NCBI GenBank assembly: GCA_009787385.1
Contig: WRGC01000003.1
Location: 1 to 64,000, forward strand
Length of the DNA: 64,000 bases
Direction of reading: 5' to 3'
Source of the DNA: Bacillota bacterium
GTDB taxonomy: Bacteria; Bacillota; Clostridia; Christensenellales; Pumilibacteraceae
The notes below the pieces were generated by a model. The model saw only the letters and a program-made list of their open reading frames with translations. It was not told the origin of the DNA and did not search any database. How positions within the stretch are numbered: position 1 is the stretch's first letter; every line of letters starts with the position of its first letter. Below, in pieces: positions 20,151-62,868 of the stretch. A program made the translations under genes and the position numbers.

Positions 20151-20340
20151 TACAATGAGCGGTTTTATTACAATAAAATACAAATTATCAACAAAACCAT
20201 CGTTATTCTTTTTTGACGCCAAAAAAGAATCAAAAAAGCTTTTTTTTTGGGGGGGGGGGCGAATCCCCACGAACGCCTTAAGGTTGTTTTTATTTATTTT
20301 GTTACTTCCTTTACATCTTAATGCACTCTATTTATATACT
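20151..20340 (+). repeat. MITE-like dispersed repeat, copy 3, with an 11-G tract
   Basis: Shares GAGCGGTT, the perfect inner hairpin TTCTTTTTTG and CAAAAAAGAA (as in copies 4 and 5), and GAACGCCTTAAGGTTGTTTTT. The outer ends are degraded. A run of 9 T followed by 11 G sits at about 20240 to 20259. It lies immediately downstream of the cas operon terminator. Nothing else is recognised in the 19954 to 20457 gap apart from the terminator. Confidence 0.75.
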
Positions 20341-20457: not shown

Positions 20458-20775
20458 TTATAAGAATGTTAGTTGATGCCACTGTGCGTCTTTGTCTGAT
20501 GGTATTTTAGTACCCAACAATATATCCGCATTGGTAAATTGTTTTTCGGTAATTGTAATTAGCCTTATACTTCCATACAATGGCAAAACTGACTGCAAGC
20601 GTTTTTTGTATTTTTTTACGCTATCATGTCCATTGCACAATCTACCATATACAGAATACTGTATCATATAAAAACCTTGCTTGATAAGGTTGTTTCTAAA
20701 TTGAGTTGCTGCTCTCCTTTGGTCCTTAGTATTGGTAGGCAAGTCAAACATTATCATCATTCTCATAAATCTCAT
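20458..20775 (-). CDS. cas2: CRISPR-associated endoribonuclease Cas2
   Basis: Adaptation-complex subunit, 105 residues. MMIMFDLPTNTKDQRR carries the beta-1 aspartate of the ferredoxin fold, and GFYMIQYSVYGRLC is the conserved second strand. It lies 42 bp after cas1 in the order cas9-cas1-cas2. No csn2 or cas4 is adjacent, which defines subtype II-C. The ATG at codon 4 is a possible alternative start. Confidence 0.93.
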   Translation of the reverse strand: MRFMRMMIMFDLPTNTKDQRRAATQFRNNLIKQGFYMIQYSVYGRLCNGHDSVKKYKKRLQSVLPLYGSIRLITITEKQFTNADILLGTKIPSDKDAQWHQLTFL

Positions 20776-20817
20776 AACTTTAGATGGAAAATTTTGTTAT
20801 ATTTTGAAAATACTATA

Positions 20818-21732
20818 CTACACAATTGAATGCAATCTAAGCACACCCAATCTCACACGAGACAGTTTGTCACAGCTTTGCTCTACACTTTGATTAAATC
20901 CCACAATATATCTCTCAATTGCAGTAGATAAATTAAACTTTTCGTTGTCTATTTTTATCTCATACTCCACTAAACTAAAAATTTTTTGCTTGCAATCACT
21001 ATCCAACTGTGTGTATTTTTTTAACAATTTAAAAATGTACAAATCTACAAATGGTCTAAAAGGTTCTATAATATCATCAGCCAAGTTGAATGCATTCAAC
21101 TCTGAACTATGAAACAAACCCAAACTAGGTTCGTATCCAAAAGCTACAAGAGTACGAGCTATCATACCTCTCACAATAGCATATCCATAGTTGAGTGCAT
21201 CATTGACAAAACAATCATCTTTTCGGCTAAATGCAACACCAAAAGTATTTTTGTCAAACAGTGAATCAAAATAACACATAGCTGCTCTAGCTTCTATATT
21301 GGTACAGTCTCCTATCTCTACTTGATTGACATAGTGTTGTAGCATCTCAATATTTTCTTTTTTATAAGCATGAAGTACAAAAGCTTGATTGTCAATTTTG
21401 TTTTTTATTATTGTCTGCCACAATTGTTGTTTGAGATTGCAAGACATAGATATTTGACTAGATAGAGCTTTTAGATGTCTACTATGGCAACAAAATGGAA
21501 GCAATACGCCATTGGGTATATGGCGTGCATCACAAACATAGGTAGCTATTTGATTTTCGGCTAGTTGAGAAATTGTGTAAGCCGTGATAGTACTCTCTCT
21601 ATTTTCTATAACCAAAGTACTCAAATCTTCTAAATTTGCTGTATAGTTGTTTACACCTTGTCTTATAACAAGTTGCCCTCTATCTATACTCAAATATGAT
21701 GGCTTGGATATGAATATATTTCTAAACGGCAT
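20818..21732 (-). CDS. cas1: CRISPR-associated integrase Cas1
   Basis: Catalytic subunit of spacer integration, 304 residues. NIEARAAMCYFDSLF carries the catalytic Glu; AFGYEPSLGLFHSSELNAFN carries the catalytic His; and LADDIIEPFRPFVDLYIF carries the C-terminal Asp region. Family-typical N-terminus RNIFISKPSYLS. It ends in TAG. It begins 74 bp after cas9, likely cotranscribed. All active-site segments look intact. Confidence 0.95.
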   Translation of the reverse strand: MPFRNIFISKPSYLSIDRGQLVIRQGVNNYTANLEDLSTLVIENRESTITAYTISQLAENQIATYVCDARHIPNGVLLPFCCHSRHLKALSSQISMSCNLKQQLWQTIIKNKIDNQAFVLHAYKKENIEMLQHYVNQVEIGDCTNIEARAAMCYFDSLFDKNTFGVAFSRKDDCFVNDALNYGYAIVRGMIARTLVAFGYEPSLGLFHSSELNAFNLADDIIEPFRPFVDLYIFKLLKKYTQLDSDCKQKIFSLVEYEIKIDNEKFNLSTAIERYIVGFNQSVEQSCDKLSRVRLGVLRLHSIV

Positions 21733-21806
21733 GTGCTTTTTAAGTGTTCGATTAGTATAATATTATAACGACAATTACAATATTATTTTTAAAAATCTTT
21801 TATAAA

Positions 21807-24800
21807 CTATTTTTGATTAGGAAATTTTTCTCTAACTTGCTTAGTAGTGATTTTGGTAATATTGCCTAGAGTATCTACTGAGCATTTGGATATTTCTTTC
21901 AAACCTTTTACTCCTAGACTAGAAAGATTGTACAAACTATCATGCGACTTTACTGTTATTGCGCCGCCAGATATTCCCGCTTTGACATAATAAATATACA
22001 CATCATTGCAAGTAGTTTTGCTAATATTTTTTACAACTTTATCACCTTCTACAACTTCGTCTTCTCTAGTAAATTCCATATTATCTTTATGCTTTACATA
22101 AATGCAATCATTGGGGTAGAGCGAAAATATAAAATCTTCATCTTTCATCTCTTTTAAAGATGGTCTAGCTAAATTAGGCAAAGTATGTTTGACAAAATCA
22201 TTGACATATACAGGCACCCAATAATACCCATTGTCACCTTTCTTTGGAGCATTTTCAACCTTAAAGACATCTATTCTTATCATTCCACCATTGGCTGCTG
22301 CACCGTTGTTCTTGAGAGTAACAAATGATGACTTTTTTTCTATTGTGTTTACTTTAAGGACTACATTCCCAAAAGTCATTGTCCCGTCTTGATTGCGGAT
22401 TGGTTTATAAAAAGGTTCTTTAAATTTGTCTTTTTCTGGCAACTTGCTTTGTTCTTTTAGGTATTGTTTCAAAGCTTGGTACAACAACTTGTCACTATCA
22501 GGCTTATAATAATTATCTATCTCTCCATCTTTGTCCAACTTTAAATTTTTCAATTCCGTGCGTTTTACCATAAGTGTAGGGTCTAACTGCTCATTCTCTT
22601 GTACTCTATCCTTGCATACACCTACTTCACTAGACTTGATTTTTGCAACTTTTCCAAATGTAGTCTCTTGATGCCCTTGTCCTGTAGCTTTGCGATTTAA
22701 TTTGCGTGATACAAATATTTTATTGATGTGTGTATCTTTGCCATCTACATGCACAGGATTGCCATCATGCAATCCTTGTGATTGTTCTATAAGTTGAGTA
22801 ACTAGATTTCTAAACTGAGTAGCTTTATAATTGCTTAGTGGAGACATTTCATTGTCAAACAACTGCCTTTCTAGCTCTTTTTTGACATGACTATTGGTTT
22901 GCTTGGTGTGCAACCCTCTTTTAAAGTACTCTTCTTTTGTCAACACTTCACCCGTCTCATAATCTACCCATTCTTCAATAGTGGCAATAATTTCTCCAGT
23001 TTCTAAATCTATTTGATTGGTAATATCTGGCTTTCTATATTTGTTTTCTATCAACTTATTGTATTTGCTTATTTGCTGTATATAGCTATCTGTAGTACAC
23101 GCAACTACTATAGCATCTAGTGCATGGTGAGTATCTCCGTTGTTGCGTACCTTGTTGAGACCAAATCTAGCTCTAATATAACTAGTCATAGTACCATTGA
23201 CAGTAATAACTCTCTTTTTTTGAGTATCTTTGGTATGAACAACTTCGTCAAACAAGAGATAATTTTTTAGTGTATTAGCTATTACCTTGGTTGCATATCT
23301 AGTGTCATTGAGATTGCGTTCTATAAACTTGTTTCTATCTTCATCTGTGATAACAGTCTTGAGTAGTCTTGACCTTTTGCCCAAATTTTTGCCAAATATT
23401 CTCTCAACATTGGCAATATATCTTTCTCTTTTTTCTCCCGTGAGATATTGCAAAGGCAATCTATTGCCTTTTTGTTGATTTTCTTCACCAAATACTAATA
23501 CCTTATTTTGATAACTGTCATTAAAAGAAATACTGTAAGGAACTATATGGTCAACTTCAACATAGCCATCTTCTAGCAAACGAGTGTTGTCTATAGATTT
23601 TCCACTATACATACATATACAGTTTTGTTGCCTATAGAGATTTATTTTGACTATATCTAGCCCTGTAGGATTGGAATCTAGTTTAGAATTGGATTTTCTT
23701 AGTTCTACAGCTTCTTGCTTGGCTCTTTCGTTGCGTTCTCTATTTTGCTTATTAGCCTTTTCAATATCCTGTCTCTCTTTTTTGGACTTTGCCATATCTC
23801 TAGCTAACTCTATATTGATACCTATAGGACTACCATATGTCTCTACCAAAGAATTGACTACCTTTATCACTTGTCCTACACTGCGTCTCACAACAGGGTT
23901 GTTGATAGGCTTAGTCCCACCATTTTCGGCATGTTCTAATAGGCTCAATTTTTTGAACCTTTCTCCCGTCCACTCACTCTTAAAGTCATACCCCGCACGA
24001 GTAACAGCTTGGTCATAAGTATCACCAACTTGCCACACATCAAGAATTTTATCTACAGCCTTAATTGACAAATGACCAACGCCACTAAATGACAATTCCA
24101 AACTTGCTTGTGATATATTGTGTGCAACCACACTGTCAAGCCCATTTTTGACCAACTCAGTCTCTAGTTTTTCAACCAAATCATTATCATCTTTGTACTT
24201 AGAGACTACTGTAGCTATACAATTGAGTTGAGCCGTAGTGAGAGTTGTGATATCAATTGACACGCCCTTTAGGACTCTTTTTATAGCGTGATATTTTGGC
24301 AATCCCAAAATCTTTGCATCTGATTCTGGATCTTTTGACTGGTCATCTTGTATAGGATTGCCATCTTTGTCTTTTTTGACTTTAGGTTTGTAGTCAACAT
24401 TGCTAAACTTGCAATCTTGAGACAAATTCAAGACTTTTCTAATATCTTTGTATGTTATTTTTTCTTTATCATGTGCATGTTTGACTAGAGCATCAAACTG
24501 CTCTTGAGTCAAATGTTGTCTGCTGTTTTTTCTACCATCAACAATACTAATGTGATTGAAATCTTGATACAACCGAAATTTTTCAAAACTATAACTAGCT
24601 TTGACCGCTCGTTCTTCTTGTGGTTCAAAAGTACACTTGCCTGTCATTTTTTCTATCAAAGAAATCAATGGTTGCAGTCCTTGCTTTTGTCTATGATAAT
24701 TGATACCCTCAATACCGTACTTGCTTTCAATTCCTCCTGGACCTTCACTGTAATGGCGTTGACTTTCAAATATCTCAAGATACTTGTCTTTCAATTGTGG

Positions 24801-25640
24801 ATTAGCATACTGATGATTACCCAAAGCAAATTGTCTTTCAAATATAAGCTTAATCTCATCTACAATCCACGCTCTCAACATTACAAATTTGTAATCTCCT
24901 GTAGAGTTGCGTGCTTTGAATACATAATTTCCTTTTACAGAAACTTGATTGCCACCCACATTGAGTCTAAACTTGGAGTCATTGTATATCATCTCTCCTA
25001 CAGAACGGTATTGAGACAAAATGATTTTGTTGTTGGCTATACTTTTTAGTGCTGCTTCATCATCTGTTTTTTCACTTTCTGTTGCTTTTGCCTTAGCTTT
25101 TTTGCTTTCATCTGTTTGACTGTCTAGTACTTTTGTATCTTTGGCATTGGACTTATAACCACGGCGTTGCAACAAATGTATAAGCAGTTTGGCAAACTCT
25201 TGATTGGTCAAAACACTATCCAACGCTCTATACCTAATCTCATATATATCCTGCTTGGGTTGACTATTGTCATACAAGTTGTCCAACTGTTGTTGAGAAA
25301 GCATACCACTTTCAACAATCAATCTCTTAGCTCTATGTAATCTAAATTTGTGTCTACGATTTCTTCGCCTAGCACCCCTTGCACTTCGCCTAGCACCCCT
25401 TGCACTTCGCCTAGCTTCTCCAAGCCCCTCATCACTACCTGGCACTTCGGCAGCTGTAAACACTCTAGAACCTGCCGCAACAATATCCACAGCATAACCA
25501 GACTCATCGCACTCTATCACAGACCAACCAACACTAGCTATACCAATATCTAATCCAAACCGTACTTTAGTGTTTTTACTTTCCTTAGTGTTTTTACTTT
25601 CCATAGTGTTTTTACTTTCCATAGTGTTTTTACTTTCCAT
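21807..25640 (-). CDS. cas9: Cas9 endonuclease, subtype II-C, with N-terminal repeat
   Basis: RNA-guided DNA endonuclease of 1277 residues. RuvC-I is RFGLDIGIASVGWSVIE (D31), RuvC-II has NIELARDMAK (E611), HNH has VEVDHIVPYS (H698), and RuvC-III has THHALDAIVVA (H838/H839, D842), so all catalytic residues are present. Two oddities are direct repeats: four hexapeptides (M/K)ESKNT at the N-terminus from 18-bp units, and a duplicated ARRSARG in the arginine-rich bridge helix from 21-bp units. The promoter is close and no ribosome site precedes the first ATG. No CRISPR array or clear tracrRNA anti-repeat was found in the window. Confidence 0.96.
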   Translation of the reverse strand: MESKNTMESKNTMESKNTKESKNTKVRFGLDIGIASVGWSVIECDESGYAVDIVAAGSRVFTAAEVPGSDEGLGEARRSARGARRSARGARRRNRRHKFRLHRAKRLIVESGMLSQQQLDNLYDNSQPKQDIYEIRYRALDSVLTNQEFAKLLIHLLQRRGYKSNAKDTKVLDSQTDESKKAKAKATESEKTDDEAALKSIANNKIILSQYRSVGEMIYNDSKFRLNVGGNQVSVKGNYVFKARNSTGDYKFVMLRAWIVDEIKLIFERQFALGNHQYANPQLKDKYLEIFESQRHYSEGPGGIESKYGIEGINYHRQKQGLQPLISLIEKMTGKCTFEPQEERAVKASYSFEKFRLYQDFNHISIVDGRKNSRQHLTQEQFDALVKHAHDKEKITYKDIRKVLNLSQDCKFSNVDYKPKVKKDKDGNPIQDDQSKDPESDAKILGLPKYHAIKRVLKGVSIDITTLTTAQLNCIATVVSKYKDDNDLVEKLETELVKNGLDSVVAHNISQASLELSFSGVGHLSIKAVDKILDVWQVGDTYDQAVTRAGYDFKSEWTGERFKKLSLLEHAENGGTKPINNPVVRRSVGQVIKVVNSLVETYGSPIGINIELARDMAKSKKERQDIEKANKQNRERNERAKQEAVELRKSNSKLDSNPTGLDIVKINLYRQQNCICMYSGKSIDNTRLLEDGYVEVDHIVPYSISFNDSYQNKVLVFGEENQQKGNRLPLQYLTGEKRERYIANVERIFGKNLGKRSRLLKTVITDEDRNKFIERNLNDTRYATKVIANTLKNYLLFDEVVHTKDTQKKRVITVNGTMTSYIRARFGLNKVRNNGDTHHALDAIVVACTTDSYIQQISKYNKLIENKYRKPDITNQIDLETGEIIATIEEWVDYETGEVLTKEEYFKRGLHTKQTNSHVKKELERQLFDNEMSPLSNYKATQFRNLVTQLIEQSQGLHDGNPVHVDGKDTHINKIFVSRKLNRKATGQGHQETTFGKVAKIKSSEVGVCKDRVQENEQLDPTLMVKRTELKNLKLDKDGEIDNYYKPDSDKLLYQALKQYLKEQSKLPEKDKFKEPFYKPIRNQDGTMTFGNVVLKVNTIEKKSSFVTLKNNGAAANGGMIRIDVFKVENAPKKGDNGYYWVPVYVNDFVKHTLPNLARPSLKEMKDEDFIFSLYPNDCIYVKHKDNMEFTREDEVVEGDKVVKNISKTTCNDVYIYYVKAGISGGAITVKSHDSLYNLSSLGVKGLKEISKCSVDTLGNITKITTKQVREKFPNQK
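25363..25415 (-). repeat. 21-bp tandem repeat in the Cas9 bridge helix
   Basis: About 2.5 copies of CTTCGCCTAGCACCCCTTGCA (plus strand), coding on the minus strand for ARRSARG twice and then ARR. In-frame units, so the copy number can change without breaking the gene. Confidence 0.9.
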
Positions 25641-31299: not shown

Positions 31300-31483
31300 G
31301 AGTGTACAACGAGCGGTTAATTACAATAAAATATAAACAATCAACAAAATAGGAGTTATTCTTTTTTGACGCCAAAAAAGAAGCAAAAAAGCTTTTTTTT
31401 GAGGGGATTCCCCCCTAACGCCTTATGTTGATTTTATTTATATCTTACTTTTTTCAATCTTAATATACCCTATTTGTATACTC
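31300..31483 (+). repeat. MITE-like dispersed repeat, copy 4
   Basis: Starts GAGTGTACAACGAGCGG and ends TTTGTATACTC, an imperfect terminal inverted repeat. Perfect inner hairpin TTCTTTTTTG with CAAAAAAGAA. Also carries CTAACGCCTTATGTTG. Sits between the small membrane gene and the flippase gene. Confidence 0.8.
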
Positions 31484-39915: not shown

Positions 39916-41211
39916 TTAATTGTTTATAACTGTCTTTAATATATCAATAACTTGGATAAATACTTGTTCTAATATAGCAACAACTATACTATTGCCTGCA
40001 GAATGTATTAGATTGTCTTTTGTGAAAAATTTAGAATGCCCTCTAGATATAGGGTTTTTAATAATTACTTTATCAAAATCACTTTCATCAAAACCCATCA
40101 ACAAAAAACACTCTCGTGGTGTAAGATATCTAAATTTGCTTTTTTTGTTATCAATATAATCAAAGTATATATTTCCAGCATTTGGGTGTCTATCTTGCTT
40201 TGTAGTAATTGTATCTACATGTTTTGATTTACAATAATTTTCTGTTACAATTTTTAGATTATCATTCCAAATTCTTTTTCTAGATTGAGTATCATTTGGC
40301 TGAGATTGCTTGGCTTCTTCCAAGTATATTTCATTTTTATAATCCAATCTAAGACATTGCTCTACTTCTTTTCTTTGTATATTTAATGTACTTATATATT
40401 TTAAACATTCTAAATTATGTTCTTTAAAGTACTTTTCTAATCTTTCTTTTAGTAGTTCACCACCATCTTTTACACCAATAAATATACTAAGCATAATAAG
40501 GCGATATCGTCTTTGAGGTTGTCCATACCATTGAGAACGAAGTTTGTATACTTTGTTATAATAACCCAAATTTTGAAGACTATTTTTCCACTCTTCAAAA
40601 TCTTTGCTATGTCTATCTGAAGTCAAAGATGTCACATTTTCTAACATCAAAACTTTTGGCATATCTAGTTTTAATTTCACTCTCTCTTGTAGTATTCTTT
40701 CTACTTCCCAAAGAAGTCCTGACCTGTTATTTGCACTCCTAGATATTCCACTACAATAACCATGAAAATGCCCAACATTGGATAAATCTTGACATGGAAA
40801 ACTATATGTCATAATATCACAATTACTAGGTAAATCACTTCCTCTAAAATCTTTTATATTGACTTTATTGTTTGTATTTAGTATTGCTGAATATATTAAT
40901 TGTAAAGATTCCATTGTATACTGTTTTAATACATCGTGAGATATTTTATTTTTGCAATTAGCACTTAGATTGTATTGTTTTAATTTTTCTAACAATTGTT
41001 GCTTAGAATAGTTTACTACATCTTTGTGCAACTCACCACCATTATGGATTCTATCATAAGCAACCATGGCGTGTATATCCCACTCACAAATAGCTTGTAC
41101 CACAAACTTGGCATTAATATTGTTCAATGCCTTTGCTTGACTACCTATACCACTAAAAAGTTCTACAACTTTTAATATTTTATCTTGTTGTTTTGATTCC
41201 CCTTTCTTCAT
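39916..41211 (-). CDS. DNA 5-cytosine methyltransferase of the defence operon
   Basis: A C5-methyltransferase of 431 residues, complete. Motif I is VELFSGIGSQAKAL, the catalytic motif IV is SFPCQDLSN, motif VI is LENVTSL, motif VIII is QPQRRYRLIML, and the last motifs are LTPRECFLLMGF and AGNSIV. The target-recognition region (about 250 to 360) gives no clue to the site. It is the last gene of the operon, 3 bp after the AIPR gene, and would protect host DNA from the nuclease module. A frameshifted copy of codons about 27 to 89 lies at the other end of the operon. Confidence 0.93.
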   Translation of the reverse strand: MKKGESKQQDKILKVVELFSGIGSQAKALNNINAKFVVQAICEWDIHAMVAYDRIHNGGELHKDVVNYSKQQLLEKLKQYNLSANCKNKISHDVLKQYTMESLQLIYSAILNTNNKVNIKDFRGSDLPSNCDIMTYSFPCQDLSNVGHFHGYCSGISRSANNRSGLLWEVERILQERVKLKLDMPKVLMLENVTSLTSDRHSKDFEEWKNSLQNLGYYNKVYKLRSQWYGQPQRRYRLIMLSIFIGVKDGGELLKERLEKYFKEHNLECLKYISTLNIQRKEVEQCLRLDYKNEIYLEEAKQSQPNDTQSRKRIWNDNLKIVTENYCKSKHVDTITTKQDRHPNAGNIYFDYIDNKKSKFRYLTPRECFLLMGFDESDFDKVIIKNPISRGHSKFFTKDNLIHSAGNSIVVAILEQVFIQVIDILKTVINN

Positions 41212-41214
41212 AAA

Positions 41215-43350
41215 CTATACCAAAACACCAGATTTTTCTAGTTTTTCTTTTGCTTGCCACACAACCATCGCTTGATTCTCCGACAAATAATTGTTGGGCT
41301 TAGATGCATAACCAATTAGTTCCATTTCCTTTATTGACAATATATTTCTATCCTTTGCTTCTTTTAAAAGTCTTTCCCAATATTCAAATCCCAAATTAAA
41401 TACTTCTATCATTATATTTGCTTTATGTGTCAAAGTTTCATCTTTTTTTGAACTTGCTTCTTGCTCATTCCAACTACTGCTATTGATTAAATCTTTTACA
41501 AAATCATCAGTTAATTCTAGATTATACTCATCAGTCATATACTCCTGCATATCTTTCAACTTGTCAAACTTCTTCCAAGTATCTTCTTGCTTACAATATT
41601 CTGTCACAATTTTACCACCTGATTGTTGTATAAATTGATTAGTTACATAAGCAATCTTATTTAACATTTTTAAATAAGATTGTGGTAAGGATTGTTTTTT
41701 CCAAATAGTATTAAAATCTATCGTGCAACTATTATGTAGCAACAATGACATCATTTTAGCTATCGTATAAGGGACTATATTGAGTTTGTATCCACCCGTA
41801 TTGTACCAATCTGCTTTGCTTACAATTCTATCAGTCTCTCTATAAAGTATGGCATAGCAAATAGATTTTTTAAAAAATAAATCATTAAATTTATTTTGGT
41901 CAGTTGAAAAATGATTATCAATAATTGTTGCAAAAGCTTTCATATTGTATTGACTCCCTTTTGCAACCAAGTCAGGTCTCAAATATTGTGCAGATACAAA
42001 GTACTTTGCCAATTCCTCTTTTTTTATTACTTGTTTTTTTGGATACTTTTTAGTATAATCATCTTTTTGCTTTTGAGTAGTAAATTTAAATTTTTGTTGT
42101 TCGTATTTACCCCTAGACCTTTCATAATACCAATGAGTTTCAAATACTTCTCCTTGTTTGGCAGGAGCTAGTATCTTGTTTGCAAGTTCTTCCATTTTCC
42201 TATGAAATGGATGATTGGAAAACATATCAGCATCAGTAACTTTGTTTTGACTATTGGCAAACTTTGCAATATTTGCTATCATTGTGTCATAGTCATCATT
42301 TTTTACAACAGTAAGTTTTAGTGGTACAAAAATATTTTCCAAACTAAATTTATCTCTAAGTATTGCAGATGTCAATGACGCGGTGGTTTGACCACCATTT
42401 ATTATTTGCAAATCTTCTATTTTAACAATTTTACTACCTGACTTATCTAATTCTACTGCAATAGCTGTACATGCTATACCATTATTATAAGTGAAAAATT
42501 TTGTAGGCTCTCTTCTTATTGTATCTCTGATACCCTTATTAATTTTACCCTTTGCTGTCAAGAAAGCCCTTATATTACCTTCTAACAATCTAGAACCAAA
42601 AGAATAATAAATTTTGTGCAACAACTCTCCTGGTATAATTGCAAGATATGCATCATAATCAGTTGCCCCACTCATTTGTGCTTTAATGCAAGGTATACCA
42701 TCACTACCAAACTGTTTTACATCAACAATAATTGTCTCTTTGCCTTTTCCAGATTGTATTAAGTCAAAAATTCTTTGTATACTCCATACATTGACTTCTA
42801 CCTTTTTATTTTTAAAACTATCTTTATGTGTGAATGATTTGATAGAAGAACTTAGCTTTTTGTTGGTTATAATATACAATTTTACTTTGTCAATAGATAT
42901 ATCATTCTCAAAATCCACGAAGTCTATTTTTAACCTTTTTTCTATTTCTTTACCAATTTTAATAATTTCGTTAGAATTATCAAAATACTTTATCAATTGG
43001 TCATCATAAACTTCTTCTAAAAAATATAGCATTTTATTGCTAAAACTAGCTATATCACTATTAGTTAGCATGTCGCTATCCATAGAATCCACATAATCAC
43101 AAATATAAAGCACTATAGACTTGTCACTTTCATCAAAGCTATAACCATCAACACTCATCTTGCGTCCATTGCGACATATCTTGTCAAAACACATAGATAT
43201 TTCCTGTGGGTCTACAATTTCGCCCATATCTTGCAGTTTTCCTAGCATATCTTCAAAAAAGTGTGAACTAGGCATTGTGCCTTCAATGCGTGAATCGTTT
43301 TTTATCTCATCTAAAAATTGCTTTCTAAACTCATCTAATGCTTGATTCAT
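41215..43350 (-). CDS. AIPR (abortive infection phage resistance) family protein
   Basis: A 711-residue protein. The diagnostic AIPR core is FFTYNNGIACTAIAV, then IEDLQIINGGQTTASLTSAI. A helical C-terminal region follows. AIPR proteins occur in phage-resistance and restriction loci; their biochemical role is not settled. It overlaps the upstream PD-(D/E)XK gene by 4 bp (start in stop), showing translational coupling, and is followed 3 bp later by the methyltransferase. Confidence 0.88.
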   Translation of the reverse strand: MNQALDEFRKQFLDEIKNDSRIEGTMPSSHFFEDMLGKLQDMGEIVDPQEISMCFDKICRNGRKMSVDGYSFDESDKSIVLYICDYVDSMDSDMLTNSDIASFSNKMLYFLEEVYDDQLIKYFDNSNEIIKIGKEIEKRLKIDFVDFENDISIDKVKLYIITNKKLSSSIKSFTHKDSFKNKKVEVNVWSIQRIFDLIQSGKGKETIIVDVKQFGSDGIPCIKAQMSGATDYDAYLAIIPGELLHKIYYSFGSRLLEGNIRAFLTAKGKINKGIRDTIRREPTKFFTYNNGIACTAIAVELDKSGSKIVKIEDLQIINGGQTTASLTSAILRDKFSLENIFVPLKLTVVKNDDYDTMIANIAKFANSQNKVTDADMFSNHPFHRKMEELANKILAPAKQGEVFETHWYYERSRGKYEQQKFKFTTQKQKDDYTKKYPKKQVIKKEELAKYFVSAQYLRPDLVAKGSQYNMKAFATIIDNHFSTDQNKFNDLFFKKSICYAILYRETDRIVSKADWYNTGGYKLNIVPYTIAKMMSLLLHNSCTIDFNTIWKKQSLPQSYLKMLNKIAYVTNQFIQQSGGKIVTEYCKQEDTWKKFDKLKDMQEYMTDEYNLELTDDFVKDLINSSSWNEQEASSKKDETLTHKANIMIEVFNLGFEYWERLLKEAKDRNILSIKEMELIGYASKPNNYLSENQAMVVWQAKEKLEKSGVLV

Positions 43351-44255
43351 ATGTTTGTTTTAAATCCTTCTATTGCATTTAGTGACAACTCATACTTTAC
43401 GCTAAGTATTGAGTTGGGTAATTGTGTCCTTTGTAGTCTTGGAAAGTCTTGAGATATAACATAAGCTTGCATACTCATATTGCAAAACACAAATTCATCA
43501 TACGACACATTGTAATAATATCCTGCTTGAATTAGTTTGTTTTCAAAAATATCTAAACACTCTTCATCTAATATCAAATCCTTTATATTAGCAATTAAGC
43601 TATTTAAGGATATACCATCAAATGATGCACTCATCTTTTCTAACCTATATACAACCAACATTCCATCAACAATAGAATCTAATTGCTCTAATGATGAAAT
43701 AATTAGAGAGCTTTTGTTTGCTTCTAAGCTTTTTATCTCAAACCAGATATCTCCATACGAAAAATCTTTGTGTGTAGGTTCTTGACCACTCCACCCCATA
43801 ATCGCATCACGCACTCCATATTTTTGTATAGATATATCTTTTAAAAAAAGTAATTCGGCAATCAATCCACTCAACTCATTTTGTGAAAGAATACTATTAT
43901 TGCTTGCAAACATCTTTTTCCACTTTGTATATCTATTTAGCAAAAATTTGTAACCAAATCCAACATTACAGTTTGTTGAAGTACAAATAAGGTCATTGCA
44001 AAAAGAATAAAATATATCATCATCACCAGAGTTGATAAACATTATAGAGTTATATTCTTGAGTTTTTACTTGTTGTATGACAATTTTTGCACTACTCTTG
44101 ACATTTTGTGGCTCAAAATTTTCATTGAGTCTAAGTGTTTTGTTCCCAAACTGATCTAATCCTAAATAAATCTCTAATGGGTGTATTTCATTTACTCTAA
44201 TATATTTGGAAATTTCTTTTAGAGTAGCAAACTTTGCTTTGGAATCATAAATCAT
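43347..44255 (-). CDS. PD-(D/E)XK nuclease-fold protein (DUF4420-like)
   Basis: A 302-residue protein. The nuclease core is visible as an early Glu in SGLIAELLFLKD, then HKDFSYGDIWFEIKSL, matching E...D...ExK. This is the arrangement of the PD-(D/E)XK motif family found beside Z1 and AIPR genes. It is the predicted DNA-cutting component. It overlaps both neighbours by 4 bp. Confidence 0.85.
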   Translation of the reverse strand: MIYDSKAKFATLKEISKYIRVNEIHPLEIYLGLDQFGNKTLRLNENFEPQNVKSSAKIVIQQVKTQEYNSIMFINSGDDDIFYSFCNDLICTSTNCNVGFGYKFLLNRYTKWKKMFASNNSILSQNELSGLIAELLFLKDISIQKYGVRDAIMGWSGQEPTHKDFSYGDIWFEIKSLEANKSSLIISSLEQLDSIVDGMLVVYRLEKMSASFDGISLNSLIANIKDLILDEECLDIFENKLIQAGYYYNVSYDEFVFCNMSMQAYVISQDFPRLQRTQLPNSILSVKYELSLNAIEGFKTNI

Positions 44256-47029
44256 TCTTCACAATCACCTCTATCATCATAGCTAGCATAGTAATTAGCA
44301 TTTATATTTACTATATATCTAGCGTTTTCTTCTTGTTGATCATTGTCTAACTTTGGAAATCCTATTTGATAACCAATCAAATATTTTTTACTAGCTTTAA
44401 AATTATTAGACATTTCAAATTCTTGCCATTTTTTTACAGTTTCTTTATCCTTTAGGGCTATGGTATCATCAAGCTCATCTTCTTCACTATCCAATGTAAT
44501 GTTTTTTGTTGTGTTATTTTGACAATGAAAGTTTGATGGCAAAACATTGTATATCATAAGCAAGGGATTTCTATCTTGTATTAGATATTTTTTTTCATTT
44601 TCTAAAGTATTTTCTTTGTCAATTTTATTTTTTTGTTCCTTTGTCAATCCTATTGATGTATCCCTTGGACTTCCCAGTCTATTGTGACTTATTTGAATCA
44701 AACTAGTATTGTCCAAAAGTTTGTTGTATTTTCTTAAGACAGGCTTGATTTTTACTCCATTTACAAATTCAAACTCTTCCCCACTACCATTAATTAAAAG
44801 CACATCAAATTTTGTAATAGATTTTTCATTATTCAAAAAATCTATAATTTGCCTTGTGTCAAAGTTGTCATTTGCTTGTTCATTTATTTTCAATTCATCA
44901 AGAAATTTTATAATTTTACTAACATCAATGTCTCTTAAATATGGTTGAGGTGTTTGTGTATCTAGCTTGTCCAAATTTTGTTCTACTAAGAGTTTTGTTG
45001 TTTGTATATTTGTATCATTGTCTTGTTTATAATCAATCATTGGAGTATAGAACATCTCACCCCAAAAGTGTTTTCTAATAGTTTTAGAACTTGTATTTCT
45101 CATCTTGCCAGATGCCGTTATTCTAAGACCATTATAAAAATTGTTACGCACTCTAATACCAAATTGTATAGGCTTTTTCTTTTTAGCACACATATCTTTC
45201 ATATCTTGTCTCAACTCTTCGGTAGACTGAATTATCTCTTTATAATACTCTTTTGTCATTTTTCTCAAATATACAGCACATAAATCACTATATTCATTTC
45301 TATAACCAAACCACCTACCCATTTGCATCAATACATCAAAGGTTGCAGAATTGCGATAAAAATAACTTATCATCAAACCCTCTAGTGTAAGTCCTCTAGA
45401 CAATGCCAAACCACCAATTGCAATAACTCTACACCCATTTTTGTTTGTATAGTCTAGCTTTTGTGATGTTTTATCTGAGTTTACTACAAGTACAATAATG
45501 TTTTTTATTGAGTTATACAATTTACTAATCAAATCATTCCATTCAATACCACAGTACAAATACTCTTTACCAAACAAATCATACAATCTTGCTACACTTG
45601 GATTGCTTAGATATTCTTTTTTTGTCAGTTTCAACGAATGTTTTATATCATTAGTTATATCCTTTAAATATTCTTTGACTAACTCACCTACAACAAATTG
45701 TACTTTTTTGTATGACGATACATTGATTAGCATAGACCTATGAGTACATTTGTCACTATCTCTACAATCTCTAATCGCATTTACTATCAAAAACCTATCA
45801 ATAGCTTGTTGCAATGATTGTGGCAAGACTTTTGGGACAAAGTCTTGTTTATGCCCCAAAGGAATTGCATTGTATAATTCTTCTTGTTCTTGCTCTGTTT
45901 TATCAACAATTTTTAGCATATGACTGTCACTATCATTGCCAACACTCAAGAACATCTTTTTTGCTCCATTGTAGTTTGACGGTGGGGACAATGCAAAAAT
46001 AAAATCTTTTGGAAACAAATCATTGCCCAACATTTCATCATCTGTATTTGGGTCAATAAATACATTTGCAAAAGGTGTGGCAGTAAAACCTACATAATTA
46101 CTTTTTTCAAATAAATTTAGTAGATTACGAATATGCTTGTTTGTTTGTGTTGGGGCATCTTCTTCTTTTTTTGTATTAATACTAGCATTGTCACACTCAT
46201 CATCAATCATAAGCATAGGGAATTTGACTTTACTTTCCCTATTTCTCAAGTTTTTATTTATTGCACTATAAATCTTTTTTAATACTGATACATTTTTTTT
46301 GATAATAAAAATATATGGTTCTCTAGTACTTTCTCTTATTAGCAATGCTGTATTATTTTCCGATCCTTTTACAAAATCTTTATTTCTTGTTGTAAAAGAA
46401 TAAGGCAAAATATCCCCTTTTTCAACGCCAACATCTTGACTGTTTTCCACATCATATCCTATAAAACCCTCTTCAACTCTGATTTGTGTCTGTTGTCTAA
46501 GAGACTCTATAGTTCCAGTCAATAAAAATATTACTTTATATCCAGCGTCAACAGCCTTGCATATTAACCCAATATAATTAGATGTTTTGCCTGATTGAAC
46601 ATCACCTATCACCAACCCCTTTCTTGAAAAACTATCAGTAGAATTTGGATCGCCTAGATAAGACATGAGTTTGGATAGCGTGTCATCTTCTAACGATTGA
46701 ATAACATTTGGCAAAAATCCTTTGTCTTTTAAATGTTTTTTGTACCTACCCCAAAAAAATGTATCTTTGTTTTGCAAATTATTGTACCAATCATCAAAGT
46801 GTTCATAATCAGCTATTATGCCAACACCCTCAGGTTGATAAACTGCATATATAGATTTTATTTTTTTAATCAATTCTTGACAATCTTGGTCATTCAATTC
46901 AACTAATTGTTCTATTCTTAATATAGTTTTTTTTATATAGTTATCATCAAAATCATCTACATTATCTAGTTTATAAAATGAATCAAAAAAACTAAGTGCT
47001 GTTTCTATTTTATCTCTATTGTCACTCAT
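44252..47029 (-). CDS. Z1-domain superfamily 2 helicase-like protein
   Basis: A 925-residue ATPase. Walker A is GDVQSGKTSNY, Walker B is LMIDDECDNAS, motif III is GFTATPFANV, and later helicase motifs appear in SRGLTLEGLM and MQMGRWFGYR. These are the hallmarks of the Z1 group of helicases, known from predicted restriction systems with MORC/MutL-type ATPases. It would move along or remodel DNA to drive the nuclease. It overlaps the GHKL gene by 8 bp and the nuclease gene by 4 bp. Confidence 0.92.
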   Translation of the reverse strand: MSDNRDKIETALSFFDSFYKLDNVDDFDDNYIKKTILRIEQLVELNDQDCQELIKKIKSIYAVYQPEGVGIIADYEHFDDWYNNLQNKDTFFWGRYKKHLKDKGFLPNVIQSLEDDTLSKLMSYLGDPNSTDSFSRKGLVIGDVQSGKTSNYIGLICKAVDAGYKVIFLLTGTIESLRQQTQIRVEEGFIGYDVENSQDVGVEKGDILPYSFTTRNKDFVKGSENNTALLIRESTREPYIFIIKKNVSVLKKIYSAINKNLRNRESKVKFPMLMIDDECDNASINTKKEEDAPTQTNKHIRNLLNLFEKSNYVGFTATPFANVFIDPNTDDEMLGNDLFPKDFIFALSPPSNYNGAKKMFLSVGNDSDSHMLKIVDKTEQEQEELYNAIPLGHKQDFVPKVLPQSLQQAIDRFLIVNAIRDCRDSDKCTHRSMLINVSSYKKVQFVVGELVKEYLKDITNDIKHSLKLTKKEYLSNPSVARLYDLFGKEYLYCGIEWNDLISKLYNSIKNIIVLVVNSDKTSQKLDYTNKNGCRVIAIGGLALSRGLTLEGLMISYFYRNSATFDVLMQMGRWFGYRNEYSDLCAVYLRKMTKEYYKEIIQSTEELRQDMKDMCAKKKKPIQFGIRVRNNFYNGLRITASGKMRNTSSKTIRKHFWGEMFYTPMIDYKQDNDTNIQTTKLLVEQNLDKLDTQTPQPYLRDIDVSKIIKFLDELKINEQANDNFDTRQIIDFLNNEKSITKFDVLLINGSGEEFEFVNGVKIKPVLRKYNKLLDNTSLIQISHNRLGSPRDTSIGLTKEQKNKIDKENTLENEKKYLIQDRNPLLMIYNVLPSNFHCQNNTTKNITLDSEEDELDDTIALKDKETVKKWQEFEMSNNFKASKKYLIGYQIGFPKLDNDQQEENARYIVNINANYYASYDDRGDCEE

Positions 47030-48509
47030 AATTCAATGCTTCCTTTACCAATTTTACAATTTGTACATCATTAAATGGTTCAATTGACAACACCTTATCT
47101 ACAGCTATGCTAATATCAATTTTATTTGTATTAGCAACGATATTTATCATCTTTTTAGCTTCATCTATAAGCATTTGTTGCCTTTCAAGACTTATGTTTA
47201 ATTCAATATTTTGATTACATACACTACTATAAATATCATCAAATGGTATAGCTTGACCTACAATTTCTAGCAATCTATATATCTTAGAGTGATTACTTTC
47301 TTCAAAATTGTTATCTACAAAGTCCCTGACAAATTTACAATCTAAATTGATTGCAAATATATCTTTTCCCGTTCTTGATTGTTTTTTATTCCAAATTCTA
47401 TTGTTGTCTAAGGTATCAAGTTTGTGTTTGTGCGTTGTTTTTCGTTCTGACCTTGTTCTAATGTCTTCTATAATCTTTCTAAAATGAACAACCAATTTTG
47501 GGGGGATATTTGCTTTTTGCTTTTTTATGTCAATATCCCAAATATCATCTAGCGAATTTGGAATATCTACTTTTATTTTTGCATATTTTGCAACTTCTGA
47601 CTTAACTCTAATCCCAAACCAAGTTCCGTATATTATAAGTCTCTCATTGCGATATATATAAAATCCTTGACAATCACGCATTGTATCTGCTCCACCAAGC
47701 AGTACTCTATCATCATCATCCAAATCATGATAGTGTGGTAATGTATAAGATTGAATTTTTATATCATGATTATTACCATCGCTATCAGTTAGTGATATAA
47801 CTTCTTGCTTACCCTTTTCTGTTTTTAAGTGTCGTTCCAAAAAAGGGTCTTGTGGTGTTATCAAATCTCTATTGATAAAAATTTTAACTTTTTTGTCAAG
47901 GTATCTATGAAAAATAAGTTCAATATGTTTTCTTGTTCTTTGTATACTATCTTGCAATGCTCTATACAAATCTTTATTATCGTCTAGCTTTGACAACAAC
48001 AAATCAAAATCTCTCCAAACAACTAAAGTACCTTGTTGCATATCTTTCAAGATACCTATTTGAGGTATGTTAGCTATTTCACTATCGTTATACTCTTGAC
48101 ATAGCCACTTGTTGTCTTTTTGTACTTGTGCAATATCCCAACCAAGAACTGACAAATCACCATCTTTTTTTGATGCTACAACAAGATTTCTACACTGAGA
48201 AAATGAAGCAGTTTTTAATCCTAGACCAAATCTACCAAGGTCATTTTTTGCTCGCTCACCATCAAAGTTACTCCCAATCTTCATGGCATTTGCAAGCTCA
48301 TTTCGTGTCATACCCTTGCCATCGTCCAAAAAAGTAATGTACTGCTCATCAAACGGATTGATACATAGAGAGATATAAATATTTTTTGCATATACAGAAA
48401 GACTATTGTCAAGTATATCTGCAACTGCAGACTCAAAAGAATAACCAATTTGCCTTAAAGAATTTATAAGAACCTTTGGCGTAGGTAAATTTTCAAAATA
48501 TTCAGCCAT
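47022..48509 (-). CDS. MORC/MutL-type GHKL ATPase, first gene of defence operon
   Basis: A 495-residue GHKL ATPase: N box AVADILDNSLS, G1 FLDDGKGM, and G2 GRFGLGLKTASF. The S5-like transducer domain follows (residues about 190 to 330), with the lysine region IKKQKANIP. Such MutL/MORC homologues sit beside Z1 helicases in predicted restriction-modification operons and act as ATP-driven clamps. Start set at ATG 48509 (MAEYFENLPTPK), since the earlier in-frame TTG at 48527 lies in the terminator T-tract. No ribosome site is seen. Expression probably depends on the leader described separately. Confidence 0.9.
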   Translation of the reverse strand: MAEYFENLPTPKVLINSLRQIGYSFESAVADILDNSLSVYAKNIYISLCINPFDEQYITFLDDGKGMTRNELANAMKIGSNFDGERAKNDLGRFGLGLKTASFSQCRNLVVASKKDGDLSVLGWDIAQVQKDNKWLCQEYNDSEIANIPQIGILKDMQQGTLVVWRDFDLLLSKLDDNKDLYRALQDSIQRTRKHIELIFHRYLDKKVKIFINRDLITPQDPFLERHLKTEKGKQEVISLTDSDGNNHDIKIQSYTLPHYHDLDDDDRVLLGGADTMRDCQGFYIYRNERLIIYGTWFGIRVKSEVAKYAKIKVDIPNSLDDIWDIDIKKQKANIPPKLVVHFRKIIEDIRTRSERKTTHKHKLDTLDNNRIWNKKQSRTGKDIFAINLDCKFVRDFVDNNFEESNHSKIYRLLEIVGQAIPFDDIYSSVCNQNIELNISLERQQMLIDEAKKMINIVANTNKIDISIAVDKVLSIEPFNDVQIVKLVKEALNYE

Positions 48510-48520
48510 AAAAACAAATA

Positions 48521-48557
48521 AAAACACACATACCTAGATTTTAGGCATGTGTGTTTT
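48521..48557 (-). terminator. Terminator/attenuator hairpin before the defence operon
   Basis: Arms 48521 to 48531 and 47 to 57 (AAAACACACAT with ATGTGTGTTTT), extended past one mismatch by CCTA/TAGG, then a T-rich tract on the minus strand. It ends 11 bases before the first start codon (48509), downstream of the promoter. Confidence 0.8.
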
Positions 48558-48604
48558 GGTTTTAGTTGTTATAAATTTTGATATGGCAAAAGACGAGAAA
48601 AGTT

Positions 48605-48661
48605 CTACCCCCCCCCGTTGATGCAAATGCTACGGTTTGTCATTTTGTCAATATTCATCAT
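48605..48661 (-). CDS. Possible leader peptide ORF ending in a 9-G tract
   Basis: An 18-codon frame from ATG 48661 to TAG 48605, coding MMNIDKMTNRSICINGGG. The last three Gly codons are a run of nine G (plus-strand C, 48608 to 48616). Loss of one G would open the frame for about 16 more codons to a later TAA. It lies between the promoter and the attenuator hairpin. No ribosome site is visible, but the first ATG is only about 5 bases from the predicted transcript start. Translation is unproven. Confidence 0.4.
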   Translation of the reverse strand: MMNIDKMTNRSICINGGG

Positions 48662-48672
48662 AAATATACCAT

Positions 48673-48701
48673 ATTATACAACAAATTGTAAAAAAAGTCA
48701 A
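48673..48701 (-). promoter_or_regulatory. Promoter of the defence operon
   Basis: TTGACT (48696 to 48701), 17-bp spacer, TATAAT (48673 to 48678) on the minus strand, about 165 bases before the ATPase start. Confidence 0.8.
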
Positions 48702-48739: not shown

Positions 48740-48927
48740 TATTTATTTTTACAATTAGCACTTAGATTGTATTGTTTTAATTTTTCTAACAATTGCTGCT
48801 TAAAATAGTTGACTACATCTTTGTACAACTCGCCACCATATGGATTCTATCATAATCAACCATGGCGTGTATATCCCACTCACAAATAGCTTGCACCACA
48901 AACTTGGCATTAATATTTTTCAATGCC
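48740..48927 (-). pseudogene. Frameshifted duplicate of the methyltransferase 5' end
   Basis: 188 bases match 40944 to 41131 in the intact methyltransferase gene, same strand, with about ten substitutions and one missing base near 48839 that breaks the frame. It covers codons about 27 to 89. It joins abruptly at 48927/48928 to the truncated P-loop gene. Confidence 0.92.
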
Positions 48928-49462
48928 AAGAAATACAAACATTACATACAGCACATAGAGTAAATAATATTGCAAACAACAAACTTCTCTTTTTAGATGT
49001 TGCCTTAGTGCGTTCTATTTTTGAATTTGGCAATTTCGAAGCTGGTTGACTATACAACAATTGTTGCAATATACTTCGCTCTATTGCACTATCGTCACTA
49101 ATCTCATTAGCACTGCTATCACTCACAACATCGTCATTAAATGACCCCAAAGATATACGAGTAAATGTATCAGTATATTTTTTTGATTTTCTCTTACTTA
49201 ATTTTGACTGCTCTTCTTGTCTACGCTTGTCCAAATATGTCTCAATTACACTACTCTTTCCCGATCCAAACCTTGCAACAACAGAAATGTTGTTGACACC
49301 ACTCTCCTTTATCTTAAAGTCAAATATGTTTGCCTCATTGTCATATATCTCCGGCATTGCTTTGGGAGAATTATCTAGCAAAAGAGTGGTGTCAATAATA
49401 CAACTATTGTTGCCACTTTGAGAACTTATCTCTTTTTTCATATTATTTCTTTTGTTGCTCAC
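48928..49462 (-). pseudogene. Truncated YobI-like P-loop NTPase
   Basis: Only the N-terminal about 178 residues remain. They include VVARFGSGKSSVIETYLD (Walker A), TRISLGSFNDD, and SAIERSILQQLLYS, followed by a hydrophobic helix where the gene is cut by the methyltransferase fragment. This matches the N-terminal part of the large YobI-type membrane-linked P-loop ATPases, which are normally over 1000 residues. Start chosen at GTG 49462 with GAGGAG 6 bases upstream. Non-functional as an ATPase. The 331 bases between it and the next gene hold nothing recognisable. Confidence 0.75.
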
Positions 49463-49814
49463 AAATCTACTCCTCAATGCCAATCAAAAAATCCAAACTT
49501 TGCTTATTATTATAAAAGGCTATTTGTCATATATATGACGATATTTCTCACATTCACTCAGTACTTTTTTTCTTAAGAAAAGTAAAGTTGTTATCACAAC
49601 ATCTTTAAAAATATCCCTCAAATCATATTTAAATATTTGACACAAAGATGTCGTATAATATTCCATTATAATATTGTTTACATGTAGCAAGCTAGCTACT
49701 TACAAAATCTAAATAAACATTCACTACTACTACAAATCTTTCAACTCAACTTGTGTTAATAATTCTTTGATACTATTATTTGTCAAAATTAAAACTACTT
49801 AATTGCAATAACAA

Positions 49815-50507
49815 TCAACCATCTATCAAAACCAATTTATGCCCCACTTGATCACATGATGTCAAATAAAACTCTGTAGAGCCCACAATGTGTACTCTAG
49901 GGACTTTTATATTGTTTCCATGTAAATGTCCATATATTACTTTAGATACACTATATTGATTGTATAAATCTGTAAAAGGTGTGGATTGTAGCTTGCTATT
50001 GAAAGGTGGATAATGTGCCATAGATATTATTTTGTCACTATCATGTTTTATTTTTTGCATGCTCTGTAGTGACAACTTAAGTCTTTCTATTTCCCTATTG
50101 TATATCTTTAAGTCACTTTCACCTTGATGTTTTTCAGGAACTGTCCACCCTCTAGTGCCACAAATACAATAATTGCCTATCCTTATACTATCATTTTGCA
50201 AAGCATATACCTTGTGCTTGAGTATGCTTCTCAATATAGAAATTGACTTCCACCAATAGTCATGATTGCCTCGTATCAATATCTTGTATCCTGGCAAATC
50301 TGCAACAAAATCCAAATCTAACATAGCGTTTTGCAGTGTCATTGCCCAACTCAAATCTCCACCCAACAACACTATATCATCTTCCATCACTATATCTAGC
50401 CACGATTGCTTTATACGATCTATATGATTGTCCCACCCTTTAAAAATATTCATAGGCTTGTTGTCTACACTTGCCATATGTAAGTCACTAATAGCAAAAA
50501 CTCTCAT
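49815..50507 (-). CDS. Calcineurin-like metallophosphoesterase
   Basis: A 230-residue cytosolic phosphoesterase: FAISDLHMAS, VLLGGDLSWAM, IRGNHDYWW, MAHYPPF and YGHLHG supply the full set of metal ligands. The C-terminal end (LTSCDQVGHKLVLI) fits the family of small Firmicute phosphoesterases of unknown substrate. The promoter is TTGACT, 18 bp, TATAAT with 7 bases to the ATG, so leaderless, and the -10 is framed by an inverted repeat. Confidence 0.88.
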   Translation of the reverse strand: MRVFAISDLHMASVDNKPMNIFKGWDNHIDRIKQSWLDIVMEDDIVLLGGDLSWAMTLQNAMLDLDFVADLPGYKILIRGNHDYWWKSISILRSILKHKVYALQNDSIRIGNYCICGTRGWTVPEKHQGESDLKIYNREIERLKLSLQSMQKIKHDSDKIISMAHYPPFNSKLQSTPFTDLYNQYSVSKVIYGHLHGNNIKVPRVHIVGSTEFYLTSCDQVGHKLVLIDG

Positions 50508-62677: not shown

Positions 62678-62868
62678 GGAGTGTACAACGAGAGATTATT
62701 AACAATAAGATACAAACAATCAACAAAACAGGCGTTATTCTTTTTTGACGCCAAAAAAGAACCAAAAAAGCTCTTGGGGGGCAAATTCAAATCCCCGAAC
62801 GCTTTAAGGTTGTTTTTATTTTAAGTTACACTTCTTTTCCATCTTAATGTCTTCTATTTGTAAACTCC
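62678..62868 (+). repeat. MITE-like dispersed repeat, copy 5
   Basis: Best-preserved copy: starts GGAGTGTACAA and ends TTTGTAAACTCC, an 11-bp imperfect terminal inverted repeat. The inner perfect hairpin is at 62738 to 62761. It occupies the gap between hslV and the MORN gene; the remainder (62450 to 62677) is AT-rich without a gene. Confidence 0.85.

Follow-up and report, generated by a model that had tools for sequence, protein, structure and literature searches.

A G-tract leader ahead of an Mza defence operon is probably a phase-variable, translation-coupled attenuator

We analyzed the first 64,000 nucleotides (the window) of contig C3 from a Pumilibacteraceae bacterium (Bacillota; GenBank assembly GCA_009787385.1). 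The assembly comprises 1.57 Mb in 49 contigs, and the window has a G+C content of about 32%. On the minus strand, from 48509 down to 39916, the window contains a compact run of genes:

47022-48509, minus strand: MzaB-like HATPase, the first gene of the operon, with no clear Shine-Dalgarno sequence
44252-47029, minus strand: MzaC-like protein with a Z1 domain
43347-44255, minus strand: MzaD-like protein (DUF4420, PD-(D/E)XK)
41215-43350, minus strand: MzaE-like AIPR protein
39916-41211, minus strand: C5-cytosine DNA methyltransferase, the last gene of the run

The assignment to Mza is based on finding MzaB, MzaC, MzaD, and MzaE together in one operon. Among the flanking genes that we scanned, there was no match to MzaA, a sigma-factor-like component; in a related type, mzaA is found in just a few systems (PMC9523054). 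Elsewhere in the window, Pfam identifies the CRISPR genes cas9, cas1, and cas2 (20458-25640, minus strand), and the only match to Rfam across the whole window, at the gathering thresholds, is one tRNA. Just upstream of the operon's leader lies a short fragment of a YobI/Tmn-like ATPase (48920-49483, minus strand), which is probably a truncated defence gene and which ends at its own hairpin (48930-48903).

The leader of the operon has these parts:

48673-48701, minus strand: promoter TTGACT-17-TATAAT, matching 11 of 12 consensus positions
48605-48661, minus strand: putative leader open reading frame (ORF) in the assembled G9 state, predicted to encode MMNIDKMTNRSICINGGG followed by a stop
48608-48616, minus strand: G9 tract, the proposed slippage site, inside the leader ORF and directly followed by TAG
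48562-48564, minus strand: TAA that ends the leader ORF with G8 or G11, 4 nt 5' of the hairpin
48534-48536, minus strand: TAG at the apex of the hairpin, which ends the leader ORF with G10 or G7 (from reading the frames)
48521-48557, minus strand: predicted intrinsic-terminator-like hairpin with a 16-bp stem, a 5-nt loop, and a U-rich tail

An earlier note on this DNA had described most of these parts. The promoter is where it was said to be, and so is the hairpin, whose stem is longer than the "11-bp-plus" that was claimed and whose predicted stability is -21.2 kcal/mol. The hairpin ends 11 nt before the ATG of mzaB (48509), and because this gap is so short, we agree that there is no room for a promoter within it. 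(Between 44000 and 52000, we found 6 terminator-like sites, versus 1.9 expected.) The note also described a small frame that starts with ATG and ends in the run of nine Gs. The run and the TAG behind it are present, but besides the ATG at 48643, the frame might start at either codon of an ATGATG (48661/48658). The ATG at 48661 is 11 nt 3' of the -10 box and lacks a Shine-Dalgarno sequence.

In the G9 state, the last three sense codons of the leader ORF are all glycine (GGG). These would be the regulatory codons if the leader were a classical attenuator that responds to an amino acid, which we consider extremely unlikely: for a trp-type device, our folds predict no antiterminator hairpin that overlaps the arms of the terminator; about 50 nt would separate the hairpin from a ribosome that had stalled on the tract; and defence genes are not expected to be under the control of glycine.

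The position at which the leader ORF ends varies with the length of the tract. As assembled, with G9, it stops 47 nt 5' of the hairpin. According to the earlier note, the loss of one G would extend the ORF by 16 codons toward the hairpin; the ORF is indeed extended, but G8 adds 14 residues, which brings the stop to within 4 nt of the hairpin. The gain of one G or the loss of two, neither of which the note considered, carries the ORF across the 5' arm of the hairpin to the stop at its apex. If the footprint of a ribosome is placed at the stop, the predicted stability of the hairpin falls from -21.2 to -9.3 kcal/mol for G8 and to 0 kcal/mol for G10. No frame fuses the leader ORF to mzaB, as all three stop upstream of it, and so we excluded a phase-variable coding tract (one that lies within the gene for the switched protein).

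Searching the genome with the mza leader identified one diverged relative, on contig C23 (19317-19430). This second leader has a TTGACA-17-TATACT promoter, an ATG 10 nt after the -10 box, a G9 tract whose distance from the promoter is almost that in the mza leader, and a hairpin directly 5' of the next gene. Between the tract and the hairpin, the two leaders are identical at 32 of 53 positions, a value that was reached by 1 in 20000 dinucleotide shuffles. The operon behind the second leader encodes BrxP/SspD-like, SspB (DUF4007), SspC, SspA/DndA-like, PbeA, and PbeC proteins; judging by these genes, it is a defence system of the Ssp/Pbe phosphorothioation type and is unrelated to the Mza operon. 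The ORF of this ssp leader stops 27 nt 5' of the hairpin with G9 and 46 nt 5' of it with G10; for G8 or G11, the stop is a TGA at the apex. In each leader, then, exactly one frame ends at the apex of the hairpin, and with a ribosome at that stop, the predicted stability of either hairpin is zero. Because the stops of the assembled G9 states fall 47 or 27 nt before the hairpins, we predict that both leaders were assembled in the OFF state.

Could this arrangement be an ordinary terminator that lies beside a G tract by chance? The hairpin would then be a simple terminator or the end of a short stand-alone RNA, the operon would be transcribed from another promoter or by constant readthrough, and the tract would have expanded neutrally or be an error of the assembly. 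G homopolymers pose problems for sequencing, and tracts of G are found at the ends of several contigs in this assembly; also, when we inspected the sequence around the C23 copy, we saw no other terminator for the gene upstream of the leader. However, the module is present twice, in diverged sequences, and 11 nt before the ATG of mzaB is too short for a promoter. Furthermore, the gene fragment ahead of the mza leader ends at a hairpin of its own, so the leader's hairpin is not required to terminate it. We judge that chance is quite unlikely to be the explanation.

We fetched and read about 94% of this genome. In this part, a palindromic element with the half-site GACGCCAAAAAAGAAYC is dispersed (85 half-sites), and its arms often include G8-G11 and C8-C11; examples in the window are at 20249-20259, 31410-31415, and 62776-62781. 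Outside this element, there are 22 runs of at least nine Gs, versus roughly 0.3 expected for all such runs. We then left out the element and considered G or C runs of at least 6 and A or T runs of at least 10, which gave 267 combinations of tract and strand. The order tract, terminator, long ORF was found in three of these: the mza leader, the C23 leader, and a G6 tract with a weaker stem. The only two tracts of at least nine Gs with this layout in the fetched genome both head defence operons. Two acG9ta tracts (in L091 and L107), which we first took for additional leaders, proved to be C tracts close to the starts of ORFs on the opposite strand.

Tracts of G9-G11 also occur inside restriction-modification genes (L095:4937-4945, L115:28-38, L099:714-722, and L059:15714-15724), namely two N6/N4 DNA methylases, an HsdS type I specificity subunit, and an Eco57I-type methylase. 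Tracts of G9-G10 lie in signal-peptide-like N-termini (L053:8640-8649, L082:3651-3659, and L098:17330-17338), which suggests phase-variable surface proteins. In both kinds of genes, switching would be classical. Another group of tracts (G8-G16) is found at the ends of contigs C5, C6, C9, C15, C22, C26, C31, C37, and C38, which by eye is far above expectation and may reflect variation in length, paralogous repeats, or trouble with sequencing.

In relatives from the same family and order, tracts of G9-G11 form the spacers between -35 and -10 boxes (L123:1534, L126:1529, L132:1524, and L202; in L202, the G9 lies within TTGACAAACGAAC-G9-TAGAAT). These are likely to be phase-variable promoters. Since relatives carry such TTGACA-(G9-11)-TATAAT-like promoters, the tract in the leader might likewise be the spacer of a second, phase-variable promoter. 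But the boxes that flank it are poor (TTGCAT-13-TAGAAC in the mza leader and TTGAAT-14-TAAATC in the C23 leader, both without the final T of the -10 box), a strong promoter is present upstream of the tract, and the terminator would still be downstream, all of which makes this explanation very unlikely.

Another alternative is that the terminator is real and constitutive, or controlled by a factor, with the tract acting through RNA structure or by binding a small RNA (sRNA), so that the reading frame is irrelevant. In both leaders, the tract is predicted to pair with a pyrimidine-rich stretch behind it, and several one-sided changes keep the pairing. A variable G repeat in an mRNA leader, as we propose for the mza leader, is known from tlpB of Helicobacter pylori, where the sRNA RepG reportedly pairs with it to graded effect (PMC8295292); for the mza leader, in contrast, we propose antitermination that depends on the frame. 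Since the hairpin predicted for the G tract leaves the arms of the terminator free, there is no obvious antiterminator, and control by RNA structure would leave the frame that ends at the apex in both copies unexplained. We consider this alternative unlikely.

Many ORFs in this genome that lack a Shine-Dalgarno sequence start 6-9 nt after a -10-like box (for example, 49815-50507 in the window, minus strand), so leaderless translation appears to be common. Both leader ORFs start 10-11 nt from the -10 box, which is slightly past this peak, and a near-leaderless start is plausible for them. The ON-frame peptides (those of the frames that end at the apex) have a similarity of 38 between the mza and ssp leaders, versus 5 and 20 for the other forward frames, but one reverse frame scores 42. 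Also, there are 10, 9, and 5 differences at the first, second, and third positions of the ON-frame codons, unlike the pattern expected of a conserved protein. We dropped conservation of the peptide as proof of translation, because a reverse frame is as good and third positions are not the most changed; it is suggestive only. Under the attenuator model, it would be enough to conserve an open frame and the position of its stop.

A mechanism of this kind has been demonstrated in Streptococcus gallolyticus (Danne et al. 2014, PMC3894217). At the pil1 locus, 22 GCAGA repeats put the stop of a leader ORF 49 bp before a terminator, and expression is low; 21 or 23 repeats put the stop 4 bp before the hairpin or within it, and expression is high. 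The raised transcription depends on translation, and a second locus, pil3, is built in a similar way (PMC3894217). The loci described here share with pil1 and pil3 the promoter, the short ORF with a slippery repeat, the premature terminator, and the operon, as well as their occurrence as two loci in one genome. In pil1 as in both of our leaders, the number of repeats sets whether the stop is far from the terminator, beside it, or inside it, and the distances are nearly equal (49 bp, 4 bp, and within for pil1; 47 nt, 4 nt, and the apex for mza). On the other hand, pil1 has a pentanucleotide repeat, a recognizable ribosome-binding site, and pilus genes, while the mza and ssp leaders have a homopolymer of G, a near-leaderless ORF with no Shine-Dalgarno sequence, and operons for defence by DNA modification. 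The function of pil1 was demonstrated and that of our leaders is inferred.

The cwpV-type switch of Clostridioides difficile reportedly also combines phase variation upstream of a gene with an intrinsic terminator in the leader. That switch is an inversion of DNA, whereas we propose slippage within a translated leader ORF.

Together, these results lead us to believe that the mza leader is probably a phase-variable, translation-coupled transcription attenuator. RNA polymerase would start immediately past the -10 box (48673). A ribosome would load at an ATG that is a few nucleotides from the 5' end of the RNA and read the G9 within the leader ORF. With G9, it would stop right after the tract, the hairpin would form, and the Mza operon would be mostly silent. 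After replication slippage to G10 (or G7), the ribosome would translate the 5' arm of the hairpin up to the stop at the apex; with G8 (or G11), it would reach 4 nt before the hairpin, which is a second probable ON state. In all of these slipped states, the terminator could not form properly and the defence genes would be transcribed. The homologous leader would act likewise on the Ssp/Pbe operon, with G8 or G11 as ON.

We observe the parts and the order in which they stand, the reading frames, the homology of the leaders, and the operons; we infer slippage, translation of the leader, and ribosome-dependent readthrough. We favor the attenuator because the full anatomy is present in the right order and recurs in a homologous leader on an unrelated defence operon; because one frame per leader ends at the apex, where the predicted stability is zero; and because just 2 of the 267 cases combine this layout with at least nine Gs. 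The near-equal distances in pil1 (PMC3894217), the abundance of G9-11 tracts in this genome (several of them in restriction-modification genes), and the frequency of starts shortly after a -10 box without a Shine-Dalgarno sequence also argue for it. Against it are the single tract length, G9, in the one assembly that we examined, the lack of a Shine-Dalgarno sequence in the leader ORF together with the slightly long spacing, the indecisive conservation of the ON-frame peptide, and the relatives, in which the leader was not detected and the orthologous operons lack it. The earlier note had proposed such an attenuator, and the second leader and the pil1 precedent strengthen the proposal; what changes is that the frame entering the hairpin is that of G10 or G7, and that G8 or G11 is the other probable ON state.

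To search relatives, we built a covariance model from the two leaders. Across 74 genomes of the family and 396 of the order, the only convincing matches were the two copies in this genome, and the weak matches that we inspected in relatives lacked the arrangement of the leader. Because the model rests on two sequences and the large-scale searches used strict filters, distant copies could be missed. We found no such leader or repeat at orthologues of mzaB and of the BrxP/SspD-like gene within the order, no such leader in 489 kb of a sister species, and no exact leader patterns in viral contigs. Given that we did not detect the leader elsewhere and that it is absent from orthologous operons, the arrangement is probably specific to this lineage.

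The attenuator mechanism itself is already known, and the G-tract leader ORF, with two copies on two defence operons, is a probable variant of it. In the literature that we searched (most subscription journals were outside its coverage), we came across neither a homopolymer version nor defence operons with pil1-type control. Slippage at homopolymers or repeats is known to switch DNA-modification systems in phase-variable type I and III restriction-modification genes (phasevarions), with the tract in the coding sequence of mod or hsdS (PMC12707154), and this genome has coding tracts as well. In contrast, the mza tract lies in a separate leader ORF, and its effect would be on transcription of the operon as a whole. 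More tentatively, and with somewhat less than even confidence, we suggest that the leader is a portable cassette, a phase-variable attenuator that was set in front of unrelated DNA-modification defence operons of a single genome. Each complete operon, with both its modification and its restriction genes, would then switch on its own at the level of transcripts, and several defence states would coexist in a clonal population.

Phase variation of restriction-modification systems is usually recognized by frameshift tracts in mod or hsdS, and a switch in a leader would escape annotation. With such an attenuator, modification and restriction genes that share an operon would be switched in concert. 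If this is true, then the mechanism described in 2014 for the pili of S. gallolyticus is not limited to pili or to pentanucleotide repeats, and phage defence would be a random, heritable trait of the population, in which whole systems could go on or off between cells.
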